A program made the position numbers and the translations under genes. Under the pieces are notes generated by a model. It was not told the origin of the DNA. It did no database searches and worked only from the letters and a program-made list of their open reading frames with translations. A stretch of 64,000 nucleotides of DNA. Source: Saccharopolyspora gloriosae. Its GTDB lineage: Bacteria > Actinomycetota > Actinomycetes > Mycobacteriales > Pseudonocardiaceae. Positions 6,275 to 36,548 of this stretch are shown here, piece by piece (the stretch's first letter is position 1; every line of letters starts with the position of its first letter). The stretch lies in the NCBI RefSeq assembly GCF_022828475.1, contig NZ_CP059557.1, positions 6,743,470 to 6,807,469 of the forward strand. Direction: 5' to 3'.

Positions 6275-7593
6275 CAGCCGCCCCGAGTGTTGGCCGGTTC
6301 GACGATGCGCCGCACCTGCTCGGCCCACCGCTGCGAGACCTCCGTCGGTTCGCCGCCGCCGACGACGTCCAGCACGGACTGCTGGATCTCCTCGGACACC
6401 TTCGGATACTCCGGCAGCGTGGGCCGGTAGTGCGTGTTCTCCAGCAGTCCCAGCCAGAATCCGGCCAGCGGGTTCGCTTCGGCGATGCGCGGGTCGACCG
6501 CCGAGTCCTCCCGCGAAGGGAGATTTCCGGAGGACAGCGCGTATTCGGTGATGTTGTCCCGGTTCAGCGCGAGCTTGACGAACTCGAACGCGTCGTCCTG
6601 CTTCGTCCCGGAGGAGCTCAGCGCCAGCGTCCAACCGCCGGACATCGACACGGTGCCGCCGCCGTCGCGGGCGGGCATCGGAGCCGCCGCCATCGTCGAC
6701 GCCCAGTCCCGCCAGCCCGCGGCTTCCCATTGTCCGGCGGCGAAACTGCCGTCCAGTCGCATCGCGACCTTGCCCTGCCTGGTCAGGTCGTCGCGGAGCT
6801 TCTTGTCGTACTGGGCGTCGGCGATCTGCGCCTTGCTCTGCGTCAGGCCCTCGTGGACGGCGGTGGACACGAAGCCCAGCGCCTCGGCGAAGCCGCGGTT
6901 CGGCGCGATCCACTTGCCGTCGTGCAGGGTTCCCGTCTCGGTGCCGTAGAGCAGCATCTCGACGGTCTGCATGCTCACCGCCTCGCCCTCCGCCTTGCCC
7001 AGCGGCATGTCGAGTCCGATCACGTCCGGAAATCGCTGCTTGACCTGGCGCGCGGCGTCCAGCACCGCGTTCCAGTCGCGCGGTTTCCAGTCGGCGGGCA
7101 ACCCGGCCTGGGTGAACAGGTCGCGGTTGAACCAGATCCCGCGCGAGTCGGTGTCCAGCGGAACGCCGTAGGTGCGGCCGTCGGCCGCGCGACCGGCCTG
7201 CTTGGTGGTGTCGATGAACCGGTCCCAGTCCGGCCAGTTCGCCAGCCGCTCGTCCAGCGGGGCCAGGTAGCCGGCCTCGACATCGGAGTTGATCGTGAAG
7301 CTGTCCTCGTAGAGCACGTCCGGCGCCGTCGAAGGCGACCGCATCCGCAGTTGCAGCTTGGAGAGGTACTCGCCCTCGGGCGCCACCACCGGGTCGAGCG
7401 CGACCCGCTTGCCCGGATGAGCCTGCTCGTACTGCTGCTTCACCCGCTGCATCAAGGTGTCGACCTGTGTCGTGTTGCCGTAGCGGTGGTAGGTCACGTT
7501 GATCGTGTTCGGATCATCGGCCACTCCGCCGCCGCAGCCCGCCACGGCCAGCAGGGCGGCGGTCAGGACTACGGGTAATCGCCAGCGACGCAT
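6274..7593 (-). CDS. Extracellular sugar-binding lipoprotein of ABC importer
   Basis: A 439-residue lipoprotein: MRRWRLPVVLTAALLAVAGC carries the signal peptide, and the lipobox AVAGC places the modified cysteine at residue 20. The mature part shows family 1 solute-binding features (INVTYHRYGN, VLYEDSF, GVPLDTDSRGIWFN, MSGGWTLAL). It captures a sugar outside the membrane and delivers it to the two permeases. The ATG at 7591-7593 has GGGGAGGA close upstream. Transcription probably starts in the region shared with the divergent ROK gene. The exact sugar is unknown. Confidence 0.93.
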   Translation of the reverse strand: MRRWRLPVVLTAALLAVAGCGGGVADDPNTINVTYHRYGNTTQVDTLMQRVKQQYEQAHPGKRVALDPVVAPEGEYLSKLQLRMRSPSTAPDVLYEDSFTINSDVEAGYLAPLDERLANWPDWDRFIDTTKQAGRAADGRTYGVPLDTDSRGIWFNRDLFTQAGLPADWKPRDWNAVLDAARQVKQRFPDVIGLDMPLGKAEGEAVSMQTVEMLLYGTETGTLHDGKWIAPNRGFAEALGFVSTAVHEGLTQSKAQIADAQYDKKLRDDLTRQGKVAMRLDGSFAAGQWEAAGWRDWASTMAAAPMPARDGGGTVSMSGGWTLALSSSGTKQDDAFEFVKLALNRDNITEYALSSGNLPSREDSAVDPRIAEANPLAGFWLGLLENTHYRPTLPEYPKVSEEIQQSVLDVVGGGEPTEVSQRWAEQVRRIVEPANTRGG

Positions 7594-10120: not shown

Positions 10121-10256
10121 GGTGACCTCCGAAAAAGGCGATCGGGCCACCTTGATTTAGCACACCCGGAGGCAGTCTCCCTCCGCCATTCGCGCGGACA
10201 TGCCCACGATCAACACTTCGAGTGACGACCATTCAGAGCAGCGGCGCCCGTCGAGC

Positions 10257-15385: not shown

Positions 15386-15863
15386 GATGTCACTCCTAGT
15401 AGGTGAGAACGCGAGTGCTGAGATAGTGCCACCCGAATGGGCGCAAATCCCGACTCGTGATGTTGCGAAGCTGTCAAATTTGCTGAAGGCCGCGGCGGAA
15501 CCCCCCGTTGAGCCCCGCATCCCACCCGGCGAGATGTTGCGCGAGCCGTGTCGTCCACGATCGGTTCCCGCACGTCCCGGTCGAGCAGAGGCTCAGTTTC
15601 ATGCGCCGGACGCCCCTGGTCAACAGCGAATTCATCGGCACTGCGCCGATCGGCGGCTGGGCGATGTCATGCGCCGGACACAGGTCTGCGCTGTTCGGTC
15701 CGGCTGATTCCACCACTCGGAGCCACCCGAACGCGATCACGTTCCGTGCGCGAACAGGGCTGTTCGAGGGATACCCGTGGGCGCGGCGGCGGAACTGCGC
15801 CTTTCGGCTGCTGCCCGGCACCACCGACCTTCGGCAGACTGCGCCGCCGAGGAGGAGATGCCG
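15386..15863. other. Divergent intergenic region, no gene recognised
   Basis: About 480 bases between the amino acid-binding protein (-) and the secreted EEP protein (+). It should hold both promoters. Open frames exist on both strands, but none has a ribosome-binding site with a plausible protein. I see no clear operator or riboswitch. Confidence 0.35.
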
Positions 15864-16682
15864 ATGACCGACACCCGCTTATCCCGCTCCCACTTGCCCC
15901 GCTCCCACCAGAAGAACCGACGCGCGAGGACCGGAGCGCTCGCCGGCGCCGGAGCGCTTCTCGCCTGCACCGGATTCGCCGTGCCCGCGTTCGCCGACAC
16001 CACCGCCGAACCGTTCGACGTGCTGCAGCTCAACCTCTGCCACAGCGGAGTCGCCGACTGCTACACCGGCGACGACACCGCGGTGCGCTCCGGGATCGCC
16101 ACCGTCCGGCAGCGCACCCCGGACGTGGTCACGCTCAACGAGATCTGCGCGCACGACATCACCACGATGACCAAGGAAACCGGGTACCACGCCGAATTCG
16201 CCGCGGCCGGTCACCGCGACGGCGGGCCGTACCAGTGCGCGGACGACCGCGGCGACTACGGCGTCGCGATCCTGACCCATCCCGACCTGGGCGCTCCCAG
16301 CGGCGACGTCACCGAACGGACCTACACCGCGCAGGACGGCGGCACCGAGCAGCGAGTGATGCTCTGCGCGCCGTTCTCCGCGATCTCCGCGTGCACCACG
16401 CACCTGTCGGCGGACGCCCCCGAGATCGCCGGGGAGCAGTGCCGGGAGCTCATGGGCGCCGCGACCGGAGCCGGCCGCCCGACCGTGATCGGCGGCGACT
16501 TCAACCTCAGCCACGGCGGTACGCCGGACGTGCAGAACTGCGTGCCGGACGGCTGGTTCCGCAAGGGCGACGGCAGCGTGCAGCACGTGTTCGCCAACGG
16601 CGACTTCGGATTCGAGCGCACCGAGAACCTGCCGATCGAGGGCACCGACCACCCGGGCCTACTGGTCGAACTCAGTCACTGA
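15864..16682 (+). CDS. Secreted endonuclease/exonuclease/phosphatase-fold protein
   Basis: A 272-residue exported protein: residues 1-45 are a signal peptide with a long basic N-region (RSHQKNRRARTGALAGAG, cleavage after PAFA). The EEP fold is shown by VLQLNLCHSG, TLNEIC (metal-binding Glu), TVIGGDFNLSH (Asp/Asn catalytic pair) and the terminal EGTDHPGLLVEL histidine. Several cysteines suggest disulfides. Family members are metal-dependent nucleases or phosphodiesterases such as sphingomyelinases; the substrate is unknown. The ATG at 15864 has GGAGG eight bases upstream; the ATG at 15858 is too close to it. Confidence 0.88.
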   Translation: MTDTRLSRSHLPRSHQKNRRARTGALAGAGALLACTGFAVPAFADTTAEPFDVLQLNLCHSGVADCYTGDDTAVRSGIATVRQRTPDVVTLNEICAHDITTMTKETGYHAEFAAAGHRDGGPYQCADDRGDYGVAILTHPDLGAPSGDVTERTYTAQDGGTEQRVMLCAPFSAISACTTHLSADAPEIAGEQCRELMGAATGAGRPTVIGGDFNLSHGGTPDVQNCVPDGWFRKGDGSVQHVFANGDFGFERTENLPIEGTDHPGLLVELSH

Positions 16683-16710
16683 TTGCGGGGTCCTCGGAAC
16701 GGCCTGCGTA

Positions 16711-16840
16711 GGGGTCGGGTAGCGGAACCTCAGTGGCTTCCTCGCTGCGGGATCTTTTTCCCTAGTGGCTCCGCCACGAGGGAAAAAGCTGTCCTCGCGA
16801 GGAAGCCACTGAGAACCCGCCGGTGGTCGGGTTTTTGACG
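16711..16840. repeat. Covarying hairpin repeat element, copy 1
   Basis: Shares a near-identical core with 32333-32455. The outer arm CAGTGGCTTCCTCG (16731-16744) pairs perfectly with CGAGGAAGCCACTG (16798-16811). Inside is a second stem: CTTTTTCCC pairs with GGGAAAAAG, and GTGGC pairs with GCCAC around a TCC loop. Directly after comes AACCCG..CGGGTT followed by TTTT, which looks like an intrinsic terminator. In copy 2 the outer-arm sequence differs at seven positions but is still fully paired. No protein is likely, although open frames through the core can be translated. Confidence 0.8.
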
Positions 16841-16861
16841 TGGGCCATGTGCTTCGCACAT

Positions 16862-16920
16862 GCAGGCACGGCTTCGCCGCAAAGCACGGCGACGCCGCAA
16901 AGTACGGTTACGCCGCTGGC
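16862..16920 (+). repeat. Short hairpin repeats CGGCTTCGCCG type
   Basis: Following repeat copy 1, units like CACGGCTTCGCCGCAAAG recur with an 18-base period three times with changes (cttcg, cgacg, ttacg centres). Each can form a CGGC/GCCG stem with a three-base loop. A longer version of the same array follows copy 2 at 32487-32670. Confidence 0.65.
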
Positions 16921-17180: not shown

Positions 17181-17357
17181 ATGAACTTGACCCGCCCGCA
17201 GCACGGCAAGCGGATCGCCGGAGTCTGCGCCGGCCTCGCCGACCGGTTCGGCCTCGGCAGGGGGCTGATGCGGTTCCTGTTCATCCTGTCGTGCCTGCTG
17301 CCCGGCCCGCAGTTCGTGATCTACATCGTCCTGTGGATCATCATCCCGAAGTCCTGA
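17181..17357 (+). CDS. PspC domain mini-protein
   Basis: Encodes 58 residues: MNLTRPQHGKRIAGVCAGLADRFG is the PspC signature, followed by a hydrophobic segment (MRFLFILSCLLPGPQFVIYIVLWIIIP). This is a single-domain membrane protein of the phage-shock PspC family, used in envelope-stress responses or as a partner of sensor kinases in actinobacteria. AGGAGG at 17166-17171 is nine bases before the ATG. It stands alone; no PspA or sensor kinase is in the window. Confidence 0.9.
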   Translation: MNLTRPQHGKRIAGVCAGLADRFGLGRGLMRFLFILSCLLPGPQFVIYIVLWIIIPKS

Positions 17358-17457: not shown

Positions 17458-18875
17458 TCAGCGCCGGGCGTGCGCGTCCAGCGCGTAGGCGATCGCCGTG
17501 GTGATCTTCGCGGCGAACTCCAGGTGCAACGACTCGTCCGGGACGTGCGCGTTGCTGCCCGGCCCGAGCGCGCCGGTCACCACGAACTGCGCGTCCGGAT
17601 AGGCGCCCTGCAGCAGGCCCATCAGCGGGATCGAACCGCCCAGGCCCATCGTCGCCCACTGCTCGCCGAACACGTCCTCGCTCACCGCGTCCAGCGCCGC
17701 CGCCAGCCACGGCTCGGTGTCCGGCGCGTTCCAGCCCGCCGCGCCGTCCGACAGCGGGAACGTCACCTCCGCTCCGTAGGGCACGTCCGTGGACAGCGCC
17801 TCGCGCAGCGCGGTCAGCGCCGACTCCGGATCGGTCGTCGGCGGGATGCGCACGCTCAGCGCGAGCGTGGTGAACGGGCGCAGCACGTTGCCCGCGTCCG
17901 GCAGCGACGGCAGACCTTCCGCACCGATCACCGACACCGTCGGGCGCCACGTGTTGTTCAGCGCCAGCTCGGCCTCGTCCTCGGACACCCAGCGCATGCC
18001 TTCCCGCGCGGGAACCGAGCCGCTGATCAGGCCGGGTACCGCCGCCACCGCGGCCCGCGCCTCCGACACCCGATTCGCGGGGATCTCCACGTTCAGCTCC
18101 GGCAGCAGCACCTCGCCCGTCGCCGAGTCCTCGATCCGGTCCAGCAGGCTGCGCACGATGCGGAACGAGCTGGGCACGATGCCGCTGGCGGTCCCGGAGT
18201 GCTGGCCGCCGTCGAGCACCCGCACCTGCACGCCCACCCGCACGTCACCGCGCAACGAGGTCGTCAGCCACAGCCGCTCGTAGTCCGCGGCCCCGAGTCC
18301 AGGCACACCACCAGCGACACCGTGCCCAGCCGGTCCGCGAGGTGTTCCAGGTAGGCGGACATGTCCGGGCTGCCGGACTCCTCGCCCGTCTCCAGCAGCA
18401 GCACGCAGCGCGCGTGCGCACCGCCGTGCGCGCGGATCGCCTCGATCGCCGTGATCGCCGCGTAAGGCGCGTAGCCGTCGTCGACGCTGCCGCGGCCGTA
18501 GAGCCTGCCGTCGCGGATCACCGGTGTCCACGGGTCCAGGCCCTCCGACCAGCCACCGACCGGCGGCTGCTTGTCGAGGTGCCCGTAGAGCAGCACGGTG
18601 TCCTGCGCATCCGCGTCGCCGGTCGCGGGGATGTCCACCAGCAGCACCGGCGTGCGCTCCGGCAGCCGCACCACTTCGAGGTTCGCACCGGGGATCTCGC
18701 GGGCGGTGATCCACTCCCGCACGTGCTCGATGGCGGCGTCGAGCTTCCCTGCCGCCACCCACTCCGCGTCGTAGGCCGGCGAGACCGCCGGGATCCGGAC
18801 TAGTTCGGAGAGGCTGGACAGGACGGAGTCCTCCCACGCCTGGTCAACGGCTGCACGCACGGCGGAACGATCCAT
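17458..18875 (-). pseudogene. M20-family dipeptidase, single-base frameshift
   Basis: A zinc metallopeptidase gene of about 472 codons that is intact except for one frameshift. The N-terminal frame from the ATG at 18873-18875 encodes LLYGHLDKQPP and GRGSVDDGYA (metal ligands), ETGEESGS (catalytic Glu) and stops after VVCLDSG. The remaining frame continues with DYERLWLTTSLRGDV, DGGQHSG and GPGSNAHVPDE to the natural stop. The break lies in the CCCC run at 18291-18294, where one more C would restore the frame. Either a recent mutation or a homopolymer error is possible. TACGAT six bases before the ATG suggests a leaderless transcript. Confidence 0.85.
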
Positions 18876-31035: not shown

Positions 31036-32313
31036 ATGCCCACCACTCGACGCGTCGCGATCGTCGGCGGCAACCGGATCCCCTTCACCCGATCCGGCGG
31101 CCCCTACACGCAGGCGTCCAACCAGGACATGCTCACCGCCGCGCTGGACGGGCTGCTCGCCCGCTTCGGCCTGCAGAACCAGATCGTCGGCGAGTTCGTC
31201 GCGGGCGCCGTGCTCAAGCACAGCCGCGACTTCAACCTGGCGCGCGAAACCGTGCTCGGCTCCAGCCTGGACCCGCGCACCCCCGCGCACGACGTGCAGA
31301 TGGCCTGCGCGACCGGCCTGGAAGCGGTCACCTCGGTCGCGAACAAGATCGCGCTCGGGCAGCTCGAATCGGGCATTGCGGGCGGCGTGGACAGCGCCAG
31401 CGACGCGCCGATCGCGCTCAACGACGACCTGCGCCGAGTCCTGCTCGCCGCCAACCACGCCAAGACGACCGGCGCCAAGATCAAAGCGTTCACCGGCGTG
31501 CGCCCACAGCACGTGGTGCCGGACATCCCGGCGAACTCCGAACCGCGCACCGGCCTGTCGATGGGCGAACACGCCGCCCGCACCGCGCTGGACTGGGAAA
31601 TCGGCCGCGAAGACCAGGACGAACTCGCCGCCCGCAGCCACCAGCGCCTCGCCGCCGCCTACGACCGCGGCTTCTTCGACGACCTGATCACCCCGTTCCA
31701 GGGCCAGACGCGGGACCAGAACCTGCGCGCCGACAGCACCGCCGAGAAGCTCGCCAAGCTCAAGCCGGTGTTCGGCAAAGGCGAGGGCGCGACGATGACC
31801 GCGGGCAACTCGACGCCGCTCAGCGACGGCGCCTCCACGGTCCTGCTGGCCAGCGAAGAGTGGGCGAAGGAGCACAAGCTGCCGGTGCTCGCGTACCTGA
31901 GCGACATCGTGCCCGCCGCCGTCGACCACGTCAGCGGCGACGAAGGCCTGCTGATGGCACCGGCGTACGCCGTGCCGAAGCTGCTGGAACGGTCCGGCAT
32001 CGGCCTCGGCGACTTCGACTTCTACGAGATCCACGAGGCCTTCGCCTCGCAGGTCCTGGCGACGCTGAAGTCCTGGCAGGACCCCGAGTTCTGCAAGGAC
32101 CGGCTCGGTCTCGACGCGCCGCTGGGCGAAATCGACTCGGCGAAGCTGAACGTCAACGGCTCCTCGCTGGCCGCCGGGCACCCGTTCGCCGCCACCGGCG
32201 GCCGGATCGTGGCGACCCTGTCGAAGCTGCTCGCCGAACGTGGCTCCGGTCGTGGGCTCATCTCCGTCTGCGCAGCAGGCGGCCAGGGGGTTACGGCGAT
32301 ACTTGAGCGGTGA
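31036..32313 (+). CDS. fadA2: Acetyl-CoA C-acyltransferase (thiolase), FadA2 type
   Basis: A 425-residue thiolase that cleaves 3-oxoacyl-CoA with CoA, the last step of beta-oxidation. The nucleophilic Cys is in QMACATGLEA near residue 91, the His in NGSSLAAGHPFAATGG near 381 and the second Cys in SVCAAGGQG near 412. Length and N-terminus resemble M. tuberculosis FadA2 (Rv0243), which is likewise divergent from fabG4. AAGGAG precedes the ATG by 8 bases. Repeat element copy 2 starts 20 bases after its stop and may act as the terminator. Confidence 0.92.
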   Translation: MPTTRRVAIVGGNRIPFTRSGGPYTQASNQDMLTAALDGLLARFGLQNQIVGEFVAGAVLKHSRDFNLARETVLGSSLDPRTPAHDVQMACATGLEAVTSVANKIALGQLESGIAGGVDSASDAPIALNDDLRRVLLAANHAKTTGAKIKAFTGVRPQHVVPDIPANSEPRTGLSMGEHAARTALDWEIGREDQDELAARSHQRLAAAYDRGFFDDLITPFQGQTRDQNLRADSTAEKLAKLKPVFGKGEGATMTAGNSTPLSDGASTVLLASEEWAKEHKLPVLAYLSDIVPAAVDHVSGDEGLLMAPAYAVPKLLERSGIGLGDFDFYEIHEAFASQVLATLKSWQDPEFCKDRLGLDAPLGEIDSAKLNVNGSSLAAGHPFAATGGRIVATLSKLLAERGSGRGLISVCAAGGQGVTAILER

Positions 32314-32332
32314 GCCGGTCGTTTTGCTTGGG

Positions 32333-32455
32333 GGGTCGGGTAGCGGAACCTCAGTTGGTCTCTCGCTGCGGGATCTTTTTCCCAAGTGGCTCCGCCACGA
32401 GGGAAAAAGCTGTCCTCGCGAGAGACCAACTGAGAACCCGCCGGTGAGCGGCTTT
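32333..32455. repeat. Covarying hairpin repeat element, copy 2
   Basis: Core identical to 16711-16840 over most of its length. The outer arm CAGTTGGTCTCTCG (32352-32365) pairs perfectly with CGAGAGACCAACTG (32419-32432). Compared with copy 1 the seven central pairs all differ while pairing is kept. The inner stem with CTTTTTCCC/GGGAAAAAG and GTGGCTCCGCCAC is unchanged. It ends with CCGC..GCGG and TTTT, again terminator-like but with a different stem. Confidence 0.8.
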
Positions 32456-32486
32456 TCGACGTGGGCTATGCGCTGACGCGCATACA

Positions 32487-32670
32487 GGCACGGCCTTCGG
32501 CCGCCAGGCAAGCGGGGCTTCGCCCGCCCTTCGCGGACTACGCCGCCAAAAGCACGGCTACGCCGCAAGGCACGGCCTTCGGCCGCGAGGCACGGCCTTC
32601 GGCCGCCAGGCAAGCGGGGCTTCGCCCGCCCTTCGCGGGCTTCGCCGCCAAAGCACGGCTTCGCCGTAAA
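32487..32670 (+). repeat. Array of short TTC-loop hairpins with an 82-base duplicated unit
   Basis: A unit of about 82 bases (32487-32568) recurs at 32589-32670, separated by a 20-base partial copy. Within it, palindromes such as CGGCCTTCGGCCG, GGGGCTTCGCCC and CGGCTACGCCG follow one another, each with a three- or four-base loop. It extends the hairpin run seen after copy 1. No coding potential is apparent. Confidence 0.7.
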
Positions 32671-32822
32671 GCAGGATTGCTTGGCGGTTCTTGCTGGGTT
32701 TTCGCCGTCGGATGGGCATGGCTTTGTCCGCAGACATGACGCTTGCCTCGTGTCGTGCTGGATGTGGTGGGGGGTGAACGGGCCGGGGGTTCAGGTCGCC
32801 GGGCCGTTCTGCTGCTCGGGAT

Positions 32823-34010
32823 GCTCCTATAGATGTCAAGCCGCTGGAGTGAGGTCGTTTTGCCTGGTTGATCTGGTGGGTGTGCTGGTCAGGGTGCGGT
32901 GGATTTCGCGGGCGACGAATCGTTTGAGGCAGCGCATAATGTCCTTTTTGGATAGTCCTTCTTTGGTGCGGCGTTCGACGTAGGTGCGGGTGCGTTCGTC
33001 GTAGCGCATGCGGACCAGGACGATGGTGTGCAGGGCGTTGTTCGCGGCCCGGTCGCCGCCGCGGTTGAGGCGGTGGCGGTGGGTGCGACCGGAGGATGCC
33101 GGGATTGGTGCGACGCCGGTCAGGTGCGCGAACGAGGCTTCGGAGCGTAGTCGTTCGGGGTTGTCCCCGGCTGTGGTCAGGAGCTGGCCGGCGGTGTCAG
33201 GGCCGACGCCGAATAGTTCCAGCAGCTGGGGTGCGGCCTGCCGGGTGAGGGGGCTGAGTTCGGCGTCGAGTTCGGTGATCTCGATGTCCATTGCTTGGTG
33301 GCGCCGCGCCAGGCGTCGTAGTGCCGCCCGGGTCGCCGCCAGCGGGTGTCCGAGGTCGTCGCCGGGCCGTAGCCGGGCCAGGGTGCGCAGCAGCGTGGCC
33401 CGGTCCAGTCCCGCGACCTGTGCGCGCAGCATCGCGGGTGCCGACACCAGCAGGCCGCGGATTTGGTTCATCGCCTGGGTGCGGGCCTTGACGGCACTGC
33501 GGCGTGCGACTCGTAACACGCGCACCGACTCGATCACGCCGTCCCGGCTTTTCGGGGTGCCTGTCGCGCGCCCGGAGAGCACGGCGGTGGCGGCGGCGTA
33601 GGCGTCGATCGGATCGGATTTGCCTTGCATCCGGCGGATCTTGCGGTCCGGGCGGTCGACATCGGTGACCGCGACCCCGGCCGCCGCGAGAACCCGGGCC
33701 AGCTCGGCTCCGTAGGCGCCGGTTCCCTCGACGCCGACCGTGACCAAGGTGCCGTGACCACGCATCCAGTGCAGCAGGTCGCGGTAGCCGTGGACTGTGG
33801 CGGGAAATTCCCGGTCAGCCAGGTGCCGGCCGACGGAGTCGATCACGGCCGCGTGGTGGGTCAAGCCGTGGGTGTCGACTCCGCCGGTGATTTTCGGGCC
33901 ATCATGGGTCATGCTGGTCATGTCCGTCCTTGCGTGTCCGTTCCGAGGGCGGCACGCGCCGGTCGGGCGGGTGGACAAGACAGTGACGGGGCTTCTGGCC
34001 AAGCTCCTAT
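32823..34010 (-). mobile_element. IS110-family insertion sequence bounded by GCTCCTAT repeats
   Basis: The transposase gene is bracketed by identical octamers GCTCCTAT at 32823-32830 and 34003-34010, 1180 bases apart, a size normal for IS110 elements. There are no inverted terminal repeats, as expected for this family. The stop codon lies six bases inside one octamer; the other end has about 80 non-coding bases before the start codon. In this family a non-coding end encodes the bridge RNA that pairs with target and donor DNA. Confidence 0.75.
32836..33921 (-). CDS. IS110-family transposase (DEDD recombinase)
   Basis: A 361-residue recombinase. The RuvC-like domain has Asp16 in GVDTHG, Glu65 in GVEGTGAYG, and Asp103/Asp106 in GKSDPIDAYA. 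The C-terminal transposase_20 domain has LLELFGVGPDTAGQLL and the serine-bearing APIPASSGRTHRHR, followed by RAANNALHTIVLVRMRYD. Together they carry out RNA-guided integration without target duplication. The ATG at 33919-33921 has AAGGACGG upstream; a second ATG is three codons on. The gene looks intact. Confidence 0.93.
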   Translation of the reverse strand: MTSMTHDGPKITGGVDTHGLTHHAAVIDSVGRHLADREFPATVHGYRDLLHWMRGHGTLVTVGVEGTGAYGAELARVLAAAGVAVTDVDRPDRKIRRMQGKSDPIDAYAAATAVLSGRATGTPKSRDGVIESVRVLRVARRSAVKARTQAMNQIRGLLVSAPAMLRAQVAGLDRATLLRTLARLRPGDDLGHPLAATRAALRRLARRHQAMDIEITELDAELSPLTRQAAPQLLELFGVGPDTAGQLLTTAGDNPERLRSEASFAHLTGVAPIPASSGRTHRHRLNRGGDRAANNALHTIVLVRMRYDERTRTYVERRTKEGLSKKDIMRCLKRFVAREIHRTLTSTPTRSTRQNDLTPAA

Positions 34011-34144
34011 GAAGTCACAAACACCCGTCCGGCCGCGTGCATGGTGGCACCCGGCGGGCCGACAAATCCCAAACCAGACAGTCGAAACGTCAGTCAGTCG
34101 AAGGGTCAGACCCACCGGAAACGTCACCACGAACATCATCACTG

Positions 34145-35256
34145 TCAGTCGTCGATGCAGGTGACCGGGACGCGGTGGACGAGGTTGTTGGCGAAGCCGC
34201 CTCGGTTCCAGGGCTCCGATACGGGCTGCACGTGGCCTTCCGCGTCGGTGGCCCGGGCGGTGAGCAGGTGTTCGCCGGGCTCCGCCCGCCAGTTCGCGCG
34301 CCAGCCGCGCCACGCCCAGCGCGGTCCCGGCTCGTCCAATTCGGCGTCCGCCCAGGTGGTGCCGTCGTCGGTGCTGAACTCGACACGGGTGATCGGCGCG
34401 TGGCCGGACCAGGCTCGGCCGGTGACCGTCAACGGACCTGGACGTACGACCCGGTCGCGGGACATGAAGTCGGGGAATCCCGGCGGCAAGATCAGCGAGC
34501 GCGGCTCGATGCGGGTGGCGGGTTCGCCCGGGTCGTCCGCGGACTGCTTGAGGCGGTAGGCCACCGCGTTCTGGAAACCCGTGAACGGCTCGTCGACCAG
34601 CTTGATCTCGCGCAGCCACTTCACGTGCGCCATGCCGTACCAACCGGGGACCACCAGTCGCACCGGATGCCCGTGCTGCGGCGGCAGCGGTTGACCGTTC
34701 ATCTCGTAGGCCAGCAGCACATCGTCGCGCAGCGCCTCCTCCCACGGCAGGCCGCGCTGGTAGTCCTGCTCCACGCCGCGTTCCACGCCGTGATCGGCTC
34801 CGGTGAACACGACTTCGACCGCCGAGTCGGCCACGCCCGCCGCTTCCAGCACGTGGCGCAGCGGTACTCCGGTCCAGTCGGCGGTGCCGACCGCCTCCAC
34901 CAGCCACGGCTGGCTCACCGGACGCGGATGCAGCCTGGCCCGGCCGTTGCCCGCGCATTCCATGGTCACCCGCACCGTGCGCGACGGCAGAGACCGCAGC
35001 TCGTGAACTCCCGCGCGCCCCCGACCTCACCGGTGATCGCCAACCGCCAGCTCGCCGCGTCCAACGCGGGCATGTCGTAGTGCGTGAGCAGGTAGTGCAG
35101 CCCGATCGGCGTGACGTCGTAGCGCAGCGCCTCCAGCGGGATTCCGTGGTTGCGCGCGGCCAGCGCCAACTCCGCCGTGCTGATCCCCTCACCGGGCTCT
35201 GCGATCCGGGACGGGAGGCTCACTTCGCGCAACTGTGCATCCATGTCCGCCAGCAT
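34145..35256 (-). pseudogene. Sulfite-oxidase-like molybdopterin enzyme, frameshifted
   Basis: Two overlapping frames together make one enzyme of about 370 residues. The first (from 35256 or the ATG at 35242-35244) encodes DVTPIGLHYLLTHYDMP and WRLAITGEVGGAREF. The second resumes as ELRSLPSRTVRVTMECAGNGRARL, containing the molybdenum-ligand Cys in ECAGNGR, then GHPVRLVVPGWYGMAHVKWL and the C-terminal Mo-co dimerisation domain. The break is at 35003-35005, where one base is missing (or two are extra). No heme domain or signal peptide is present. It lies 134 bases from the IS110 element but is not interrupted by it. A sequencing error is possible. Confidence 0.8.
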
Positions 35257-35669
35257 GCTGGCGGGCGGGGCCGCCGGAAACCGCCGTCCACATCGCAGGC
35301 CCCGCTGGGGCCGGCGGCCGCTCCGCCGAACGAGTGGACTCCCGCCTCGTTCAGAAGATTCGCCGACCGTCGAGCATGACCGTATGCGCTGGTCAACAAG
35401 CCAGAATCGCTATACCGAGCGGTCTCGTTTCACCTACAAAGCTGTGACTTGAGCCACCTTGAGGCCCTTGTGTAACAACGCCGGGGGTCCCGCCGATATG
35501 CATGGTGACCCCGCGGTGCTGTCGGACCCCCGACCTGGCAGCACCGCGGGGCCTTCCAATTTCCGGGGTCGATCACCGGCGAAACCGGCCACGCACCGAG
35601 ATCAAGCGTCGCGCACCCCGATTTGTTCCCGCCCTCGGCGAGCCGCCCCCACGATCGCCTCGACCGGCG
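35257..35669. other. Intergenic region with a GC hairpin
   Basis: About 410 bases without a supported gene, between two minus-strand genes. A lower-GC stretch at 35390-35470 could be the promoter of the frameshifted oxidoreductase. The hairpin at 35508-35550 is described separately. Confidence 0.35.
35508..35550 (-). terminator. 13-bp GC hairpin downstream of alpha/beta hydrolase
   Basis: CCCCGCGGTGCTG (35508-35520) pairs perfectly with CAGCACCGCGGGG (35538-35550); GTCGG..CCGAC pairs inside the loop. It is likely the terminator for the minus-strand hydrolase gene, 120 bases after its stop. Confidence 0.6.
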
Positions 35670-36548
35670 TCAGGCTCGATCCGCGGCCGCCAGGAACTCG
35701 ACCATCCGGTCGTTGACCAGTTCGGGGCGCTCCATCGGGAAGTTGTGGCCGACACCGGGCAGCACGTTTACCTCAGCCGACGGCAGCAACGCGCGCAGCC
35801 TGGCCTGGACGACGTCCGAATGGTGCACCGTGCTCCGTTCGGCCAGCAGAACGAGCAACGGCGCGGTGATGCTCCGGAGCTGCTCATCACCGAGCACGCC
35901 CGCCTTCGGCAGCCTGATCTTGAAGTCCCGCGCGGAAGCCGAGGTCAGACGCAGGATGTCGCGGTCGGTCGGAACGGTCTCGGAGGACGACCGCGCGGCG
36001 AGCCACCGCGGACCCGCCAGCAGAATCAGGTCCTGGAACACCCCGACCAGGTAGCGCGTTCGTGCCTGGCTGAGCCCGACCGAGTCGAGCAACGTCAACG
36101 TGGCCGCACGATCCGGGAACCGCACCACGTAGTTGGCGGCCATCCAGCCGCCGTGCGAAACGCCGATCACGTGGGCTCGTTCAAGGCCCAGCTCGGTGAG
36201 CACGTCCTCGATCCACGCGGCCTCGTCCGCGAAATCCCGGATCGGCTTCTGCTGCACGCTGCGGCCTTGCTCGCCGAGCATGTCGACGGCGAAGACCGCG
36301 CGGTGCGCGGCCAACGCGGCGACGTTCGGATGCCACGCCGCCGAGGTCACCGCCAGACCGTGCAGCAGCACGACCGGCGGGCCGGGACCGTCTCCGGACC
36401 GGTGGACGTGCACGGTGCCGAACCGGGTGCGGACGTCCAGCTCCTCGCGGGCGACCGGCCACTTCCGGAACGCCACCTCGTAGCGCCGCAGAAACCGCTG
36501 CCGCGCGGCTTCGTCCCGAAACCCACTGACCGGTTCACTCGACACCAT
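35670..36548 (-). CDS. Alpha/beta-hydrolase fold protein
   Basis: A 292-residue soluble hydrolase. VVLLHGLAVTSAAW (oxyanion hole) is near residue 60, the nucleophile elbow GVSHGG near 130 and the His in LPGVGHNFPMERPE near 265; the acid is probably in LLVLLAERSTV. An N-terminal helical extension of about 40 residues (RQRFLRRYEVAFRKWP) is typical of esterases in this subgroup. The substrate is unknown. The ATG at 36546-36548 has GGGGG five bases upstream; an in-frame GTG lies two codons earlier. Confidence 0.88.
   Translation of the reverse strand: MVSSEPVSGFRDEAARQRFLRRYEVAFRKWPVAREELDVRTRFGTVHVHRSGDGPGPPVVLLHGLAVTSAAWHPNVAALAAHRAVFAVDMLGEQGRSVQQKPIRDFADEAAWIEDVLTELGLERAHVIGVSHGGWMAANYVVRFPDRAATLTLLDSVGLSQARTRYLVGVFQDLILLAGPRWLAARSSSETVPTDRDILRLTSASARDFKIRLPKAGVLGDEQLRSITAPLLVLLAERSTVHHSDVVQARLRALLPSAEVNVLPGVGHNFPMERPELVNDRMVEFLAAADRA

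Follow-up and report, generated by a model that had tools for sequence, protein, structure and literature searches.

A dispersed hairpin repeat with a fixed scaffold and covarying arms in Saccharopolyspora gloriosae and its relatives

Two structured elements in a 64,000-nucleotide stretch of the Saccharopolyspora gloriosae chromosome (here called the window) belong to a dispersed palindromic repeat built on a 99-nt hairpin core. The repeat is present in high copy number, sits preferentially behind genes, turns over between related genomes, covaries in both of its variable stems and, at a site with one detected copy per genome, changes in place mostly by compensated substitutions; mosaic copies and copies with an inverted inner segment also occur. 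We interpret it as a mobile hairpin of this actinobacterial family, REP/MITE-like and non-autonomous, which would be read as a folded single strand and is sometimes retained by the host, and we assign this interpretation a probability of roughly one half.

Results

Architecture of the Repeat

From 5′ to 3′, the core comprises GCGG-AAC-C, a 5′ variable arm, CTCGCTGCGGGATC, a variable inner stem and loop, GCTGTCCTCGCGAG, a 3′ variable arm and G-AAC-CCGC. The inner stems fall into several types, and the core is flanked by a leader of about 30-35 nt and by a 3′ module; leaders, inner stems and 3′ modules are found in many different combinations among copies. One compact subfamily ends in GGTCACTGCTCAGCGGCTTCGCCGCTGACAAGACA, whereas the window copies run into arrays of small hairpin modules. 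Among 109 copies from the S. gloriosae genome, the base that precedes the GCGG foot is A in 55 cases and G in 52, and the window copies read GTA-GCGG.

The core of copy 1 (GCGGAAC ... GAACCCGC) occupies positions 16722-16820 of the window and that of copy 2 positions 32343-32441, both on the plus strand, with scores of 110.2 and 108.9 bits against R1, a covariance model built from 47 copies. Both copies proposed by a sequence-only reading of the window are present, and their cores fold far better than shuffled sequences: plus-strand z scores are -9.5 and -10.2 for copies 1 and 2, with none of 200 shuffles equally stable, and minus-strand z scores are -11.5 and -10.1. Copy 1 carries the 5′ arm TGGCTTC (16734-16740, columns 13-19 of alignment A1) and the 3′ arm GAAGCCA (16802-16808), and copy 2 carries TTGGTCT (32355-32361) and AGACCAA (32423-32429), each 3′ arm being the complement of its 5′ partner and all lying on the plus strand. 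The two 14-mers that span the outer arm, CAGTGGCTTCCTCG and CAGTTGGTCTCTCG, differ at four positions within a 6-nt span, rather than at the seven adjacent positions first counted, but all four changed pairs are still complementary, so that the pairing described in the sequence-only reading is indeed preserved. The inner stem and TCC loop, described as conserved, are common to both copies except for one base (CCC[T/A]AG).

The leaders extend from the stop codon to the hairpin on the plus strand, at 16683-16721 for copy 1 (GGCCTGCGTAGGGGTCGGGTA type) and 32314-32342 for copy 2 (GGTCGTTTTGCTTGGGGGGTCGGGTA type). The supposed separate hairpin with a T-run proves to be a short, weak stem carrying 4-5 T, at 16814-16836 (+), where it overlaps the 3′ foot of the core, and at 32440-32456 (+); it is present behind both copies but is not called by a terminator scan. 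The 3′ module of copy 1 (GACGTGGGCCATGTGCTTCGCACAT) and its short array of small hairpin modules fill 16837-16916 (+), and those of copy 2 (GACGTGGGCTATGCGCTGACGCGCAT), with a longer array, fill 32457-32680 (+). The array modules (CACGGCTTCGCCGC, GGCCTTCGGCC and GCGGGGCTTCGCCCGC; window positions 16860-16916 and 32490-32680) vary in order and number among copies and also among orthologous sites. Many copies have a short direct repeat on both sides of the core, as at 16707-16721 and 16821-16832 of the window; it is GGTGGTCG-like in the same genus and GGCGGTGC-like elsewhere, and the two-sided association is only partial, in a comparison that counted one S. gloriosae locus (L332) among the other genera. 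Shortened forms also exist, in which the outer hairpin stands alone or the leader is joined to the 3′-end hairpin (positions 133374-133419 of the S. gloriosae genome; contig C3 near 97642 in the relative NFXS83), and these are perhaps deletions between repeated CTCAGCGGC.

Neither window copy matches an Rfam covariance model at gathering thresholds. A wider Rfam search of 12 element loci at E ≤ 1 returned a single match, a sub-threshold gut-2 in one locus (L101), which we reject since it scores below the gathering threshold and lies at 7479-7519, away from the element near 2500. No recognized description of this repeat was found in the open-licence PMC literature.

Copy Number and Distribution

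The two copies noted initially are a large undercount. The pattern CGGAACCTCAGN7CTCGCTG, allowing at most 3 mismatches, has 170 + 173 = 343 matches in the 6.9-Mb S. gloriosae genome, compared to 3 + 3 = 6 for a reversed control; these counts include degenerate copies and some chance matches. Five other genomes of the genus give 64, 62, 398, 154 and 251 matches, with 2 to 5 for the reversed controls. A stricter pattern detects the repeat in 32 of 150 family genomes, spread over 14 of 46 genera, some with only one or two matches.

A covariance-model search, of the kind that the sequence-only reading had proposed, was run with R1 on 249 genomes sampled across the order, under strict filters and with 16 candidates scored per genome. 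At E ≤ 1e-4 it finds the element in 18 of them, representing 6 of 69 genera. All 18 belong to the same family as S. gloriosae, in a sample of 249 for which the share of genomes from outside the family is not given. Carriers named by a pattern scan of contigs (105 stretches) are Saccharopolyspora species, Halopolyspora algeriensis and Actinopolyspora biskrensis, which NCBI places in the Pseudonocardiaceae, in no family and in the Actinopolysporaceae, respectively. A set of 20 of the stretches examined had been selected for holding copies. The fixed islands of the scaffold are common to several genera.

Matched Arms Are Linked More Tightly to Each Other Than to the Rest of the Element

In an alignment of 47 copies (46 distinct), 93.7% of cells in paired columns can pair, compared to 81.2% after shuffling and 42-49% when the sequences are slid. 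Cells with a double change number 176 (52.9 in shuffles), and 16 pairs are changed on both sides (11.7 in shuffles). Both variable stems thus covary strongly relative to shuffles, the outcome of a statistical test of the arm pairs that had also been suggested from the sequence alone.

Of 109 scored copies from the S. gloriosae genome, 80 have identical arms, and in all but three of the remaining 29 (26 copies) the difference is confined to one or two of the seven positions; in 131 scored copies from other genomes, the arms are identical in 85 and non-identical in 46. This scoring dropped 45 of 154 and 75 of 206 raw finder matches, respectively, as lacking TCAG or lying too near the end of the locus, some of them chance matches in genes, and pooled rare categories. 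Many copies with unpaired or randomly mutated arms had been named beforehand as grounds for refuting the proposal; on the counts above it is not refuted, though imperfect arms are common. The non-identical fractions (29/109 and 46/131) do weigh against the mobile-hairpin interpretation, as does the lack of any clean, proven target-site duplication.

The two arms share a normalized mutual information of 0.71 (z 29). The corresponding values with the inner type, the apex-near base and the inner-island base are 0.22, 0.17 and 0.10 for the 5′ arm and 0.32, 0.19 and 0.12 for the 3′ arm, which exceed shuffles and so reveal some subfamily structure. Common descent or conversion of whole copies predicts that the middle is tied to the arms at least as closely as the arms are tied to each other, and the reverse is observed. 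The idea that arms match since whole subfamilies descend from one copy is weakened accordingly (0.71 versus 0.10-0.32), and shared descent alone is insufficient to explain the match. Considered together, these data suggest that the folded shape of the hairpin matters more than its sequence. The sequence-only reading had offered a structured RNA or a mobile hairpin with exchangeable arms, which was the right pair of ideas, and the covariation it implied is strongly supported; overall, its observation is partly confirmed and its interpretation partly supported.

Elements Turn Over between Close Relatives

We compared 0.8 Mb of the S. gloriosae genome with stretches of about 0.75 Mb from NFXS83, of which about 0.54 Mb could be aligned at a mean identity of 90.5%; the comparison is confined to these NFXS83 stretches. 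Of 36 finder matches in S. gloriosae, 26 map to NFXS83, one of them a chance match in a gene. Among the remaining 25, nine are shared in the same place and orientation, one (at 667026) faces an element in opposite orientation, and 15 are absent according to the finder, although at least one of these 15 NFXS83 sites (opposite 335521) holds a visible remnant. In the reverse direction, 17 of 23 NFXS83 finder matches map to S. gloriosae intervals, and eight of the 17 have no counterpart in the same orientation; two of the eight resemble chance matches and one is the opposite-orientation case. Element-less sites include window positions 10241-10254, where S. gloriosae has 14 nt and NFXS83 (L118) an element of about 277 nt, as well as 606529, 618105 and others. 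The element-less sites and the spread of copy number support both gain and loss; part of the turnover could be loss, and the finder may miss further copies.

At eight of the nine shared sites, the two genomes differ in their arms. The arms are perfectly matched in both genomes at five of these, and at least one copy is imperfect at the other three. In one such comparison (L113 and L019), leader, loop and 3′ module nearly agree, while the arms are CGTCCTT in one and TGGTCTT in the other, each paired. Some shared sites may be independent insertions or re-insertions at a hotspot. At 667026, the two genomes (NFXS83 C36:3305) hold elements in opposite orientations within one intergenic gap, which suggests independent insertion at a hotspot there.

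A Strand Bias Confined to Low-Copy Forms

Mismatches in the outer helix that form G-U on one strand only provide a test of strand. In other genera, 22 such pairs are of the minus kind and one of the plus kind (20 distinct arm pairs; p 5.7e-6, a value that overstates independence since arm pairs are related). HNM0986 has ten minus and no plus pairs, and a small set of hirsuta, oryzae, ipomoeae, Halopolyspora and Actinopolyspora loci has six and one. Folding stability favors the plus strand in just 1 of 20 distinct arm pairs from other genera, 0 of 8 from HNM0986 and 1 of 7 from the hirsuta-to-Actinopolyspora set. In contrast, the high-copy genomes show no such wobble bias, with plus and minus counts of 17 and 18 in S. 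gloriosae, 13 and 18 in NFXS83, and 1 and 1 in G003. Among their distinct arm pairs, only 14 of 36, 10 of 44 and 3 of 16, respectively, fold more stably as the plus strand. Judged from these counts, low-copy forms appear to lean toward a folded minus strand, a lean that seems to be lost in high-copy genomes, where many arms are perfect palindromes. A plus-strand mRNA structure is rejected, since no group has an excess of plus-strand G-U pairs.

This bias is an argument for a structured RNA with a host function, such as 3′-end processing, stability or a minus-strand RNA, in which selection would maintain the pairing. The rarity of arm pairs that favor the plus strand in other genera and the islands common to several genera point the same way. 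Several observations do not: the bias is absent from three high-copy genomes, and its p value is inflated by the relatedness of arm pairs within subfamilies; two wobble pairs within the fixed inner islands, at columns 28-82 and 32-78, are plus-strand wobbles in 39 and 40 of the 46 sequences; most sites are unshared between genomes that are about 90% identical; and a scan found no sigma-70-like promoter at either window copy. G-T pairs are tolerated in single-stranded DNA hairpins too. We consider the host RNA a serious but unlikely alternative. In the S. erythraea transcriptome, 190 putative intergenic non-coding RNAs are listed and antisense transcription is enriched at gene 3′ ends, according to the portion of the source consulted (PMC3610266), which is compatible with a minus-strand RNA here but is not evidence for one.

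The strongest case of change in place is an element behind gatB in another genus (g34), found in four of six genomes examined (G098, G071, G149 and G118). R1 detects one match each in G098, G071 and G118 (E ≤ 1e-4, among the 16 candidates per genome), and G149 is not in the R1 list. Between G098 and G071, four of 100 core bases differ, forming two compensated pairs; between G098 and G118, six pairs are changed and four of them compensated; G149 has three additional unpaired positions relative to G098 and no compensated change. The gatB-linked core is 78-96% identical and the final 600 nt of gatB have an identity of 0.90-0.93, whereas identity beyond the element falls to 0.34-0.48 over 150 nt (six comparisons among the four genomes) and is 0.47-0.63 over 300 nt. 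This conservation against diverged flanks supports the host-RNA alternative, and for this copy host function fits better than mobility. Since a g34 genome has a single detected copy, there is no visible donor for its arms within that genome. The gatB case says that, beyond template switching as a supplier of matched arms, something also keeps them matched.

Inverted Inner Segments Point to Template Switching

Seven copies start with an inverted inner segment, four in G003 and three in G005; the remaining four genomes of the genus lack such copies. Five of the seven have complete cores, with five arm types and the inversion lying between the arms (L306, L308, L309, L311 and L312); L306 has one arm mismatch and L309 lies near a contig end. 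The other two are L307, which is cut by a contig end, and L310, which continues into a reversed 5′ foot. In L310 (G003:C1 near 2446405), this second half creates a head-to-head palindrome that exceeds the usual core. Of six inner-inverted candidates from a separate scan, two (L208 and L258) are real, three are chance matches in genes and one is a misparse; in L010 the apex is inverted. Mosaic copies, whose two arms come from different types, suggest that exchange between copies also occurs.

According to the sections available of PMC8794818 and PMC8604942, template switching from arm to arm of an inverted repeat leaves inversions of this sort. The inverted inner segments thus point to template switching at the DNA level, which can supply matched arms. 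The repeat resembles the template-switched hairpins of PMC8794818, as far as the available text describes them, in its multi-base compensated changes and loop inversions; it differs in that those are RNA genes analyzed with ancestral reconstruction, whereas here hundreds of dispersed copies lie in one genome.

Taken to its limit, this process would make arm matching a mere by-product in inert repeats, with no selection on the fold. The inner and apex inversions carry the described signature (PMC8604942 and PMC8794818, from the portions seen), and mismatches in the high-copy genomes lack strand bias, and both speak for this reading. It leaves unexplained the islands fixed across genera, the gatB copy conserved against diverged flanks, the strand bias in distant genera and the spacing behind stop codons, and we regard it as improbable.

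Placement behind Stop Codons and the Search for a Mobilizer

As the sequence-only reading proposed, both window copies lie just after gene ends, at stops 16682 and 32313. Genes were called with a simple codon-usage caller. Copy 1 follows an Exo_endo_phos gene (15858-16682, +), with its foot 40 nt past the stop, and faces a converging gene with a peptidase dimerisation domain (17458-18306, -), a doubtful ORF of 58 amino acids (17181-17357, +) lying between them. Copy 2 follows a thiolase gene (31036-32313, +), with its foot 30 nt past the stop, and faces an IS110-family transposase gene (32836-33921, -). By these calls, both copies sit between convergent genes.

The same arrangement prevails elsewhere. 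Among 121 intergenic copies (two more lie inside genes), 62 are in convergent gaps, 33 + 20 in codirectional gaps and six in divergent gaps, compared to 166 convergent (17%) and 253 divergent (26%) among 959 background gaps of at least 100 nt. Of the 95 copies that follow a codirectional gene, 76 have their foot 20-60 nt past the stop, 48 of those at 30-40 nt. We read this placement as a targeting rule or strong filtering, two possibilities that the data do not separate.

A family of transcription terminators spread as ordinary 3′ ends would account for elements that lie behind stop codons, codirectional with the gene and enriched between convergent genes, but it is very improbable, given that in both window copies the main hairpin has no T-tract directly behind it and so lacks the intrinsic-terminator arrangement of a G+C-rich stem followed by a T-run, that the scan places sites only inside the big hairpin at near-chance numbers (1 and 2, versus shuffle means of 0.5 and 0.7), and that some copies, judged by eye, stand behind an existing terminator-like hairpin. 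The termination device suggested by the sequence-only reading is therefore unsupported by the scan, although the location behind stop codons still fits some 3′-end role.

Searches for a mobilizer covered Y1 transposases, reverse transcriptases and IS110 transposases and yielded no candidate; the mobilizer may belong to another family. A REPtron is rejected, since Y1_Tnp (PF01797) has no match at E ≤ 0.01 in the S. gloriosae genome, in a search that was positive in 6 of 14 control genomes. A retroelement (group II intron or retron) is rejected, with no RVT_1 match at E ≤ 0.001 in the S. gloriosae genome and matches in one of six genomes of the genus. IS110 is rejected as well, since only one of five IS110-type matches, that at 32836-33921, has an element within its 1.5-kb flanks. 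An autonomous parent that shares the 3′ end is likewise rejected: in the searched stretches, 61 of 62 matches to the 3′ end have the foot of an element just upstream, and the remaining one is a short deletion product. By eye, no separate terminal inverted repeats are seen. At 606529 and 618105, short CTTC-type repeats found at the junctions are no more than suggestive of target-site duplications.

Discussion

The interpretation that we favor, a mobile hairpin sometimes kept by its host, would work as follows. The element would land just behind stop codons, oriented like the upstream gene. Its 99-nt core is a scaffold in which fixed islands (GCGG-AAC, CTCGCTGCGGGATC / GCTGTCCTCGCGAG and AAC-CCGC) are connected by two stems whose length is set but whose sequence is almost free. 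We infer that an enzyme recognizes the folded single strand, as DNA or RNA, such that the arms are free to drift provided that pairing is kept. Once one arm has changed, pairing would be restored in part through selection and in part through DNA template switching from arm to arm; the switching would also invert the inner segment now and then. New arm types would spread as subfamilies through copying and ectopic recombination, and some copies would be kept by the host as 3′-end structures.

We file the element as a kind of dispersed palindromic repeat that falls outside the GTAG REPs by its size and by having no Y1 transposase match, with a fixed-island scaffold that simple REPs lack. In the portion of PMC3733652 consulted, GTAG REPs, which are associated with RAYT transposases, are likewise dispersed high-copy palindromes, many behind coding regions, with stems that differ between families; their GTAG-type tag lies at one end, and the base before the foot of the element here is A about as often as G. 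That text describes a simple palindrome of 20-40 bp, whereas the element here has a 99-nt core with internal loops and conserved islands. Also unlike the GTAG REPs as described there, it displays many arm types on one scaffold in one genome, a preferred distance to stop codons and no Y1_Tnp match in its genome.

MITEs share its non-autonomous nature, high copy number and presence or absence at orthologous intergenic sites; unlike MITEs, it combines a conserved secondary structure with free stem sequence and, by eye, has no separate terminal inverted repeats. Integron attC sites act as a folded strand whose structure is conserved and whose arms are variable and self-complementary. They offer a comparison only of how the element might work, and the copies that we looked at are solitary.

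A bolder proposal, which we put forward tentatively and think unlikely, is a new class of mobile structured nucleic acid, with a fixed scaffold and nearly free stems, which some machinery would recognize as a folded minus strand of RNA or single-stranded DNA and place at a preferred distance behind the stops of convergent genes. One genus would hold it in single copies passed on vertically, and elsewhere it would have expanded to about 400 copies, its arms diversifying under pairing alone.

The repeat amounts to a natural many-copy experiment in compensatory evolution, in which one scaffold carries dozens of arm types, with different arms at orthologous sites, mosaics and inversions within related genomes. 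Such a system lets selection on folding be told apart from template switching and ectopic recombination. The preferred distance to the stop codon raises a specific question about targeting, and from the strand bias in distant genera one can predict the strand that would be active.

Other Features of the Window

The IS110-family element beside copy 2, at about 32800-34150 of the window, has two near-identical counterparts elsewhere in the S. gloriosae genome, near 5807844 and 6251216, each copy measuring about 1340 nt; a search confined to a smaller set of stretches found no second copy of its transposase. Further along the window, Rfam identifies an F6 sRNA (RF01791) at 35502-35558 (+) with 64.2 bits, in the gap between a predicted gene that ends at 35256 and one that starts at 35670.
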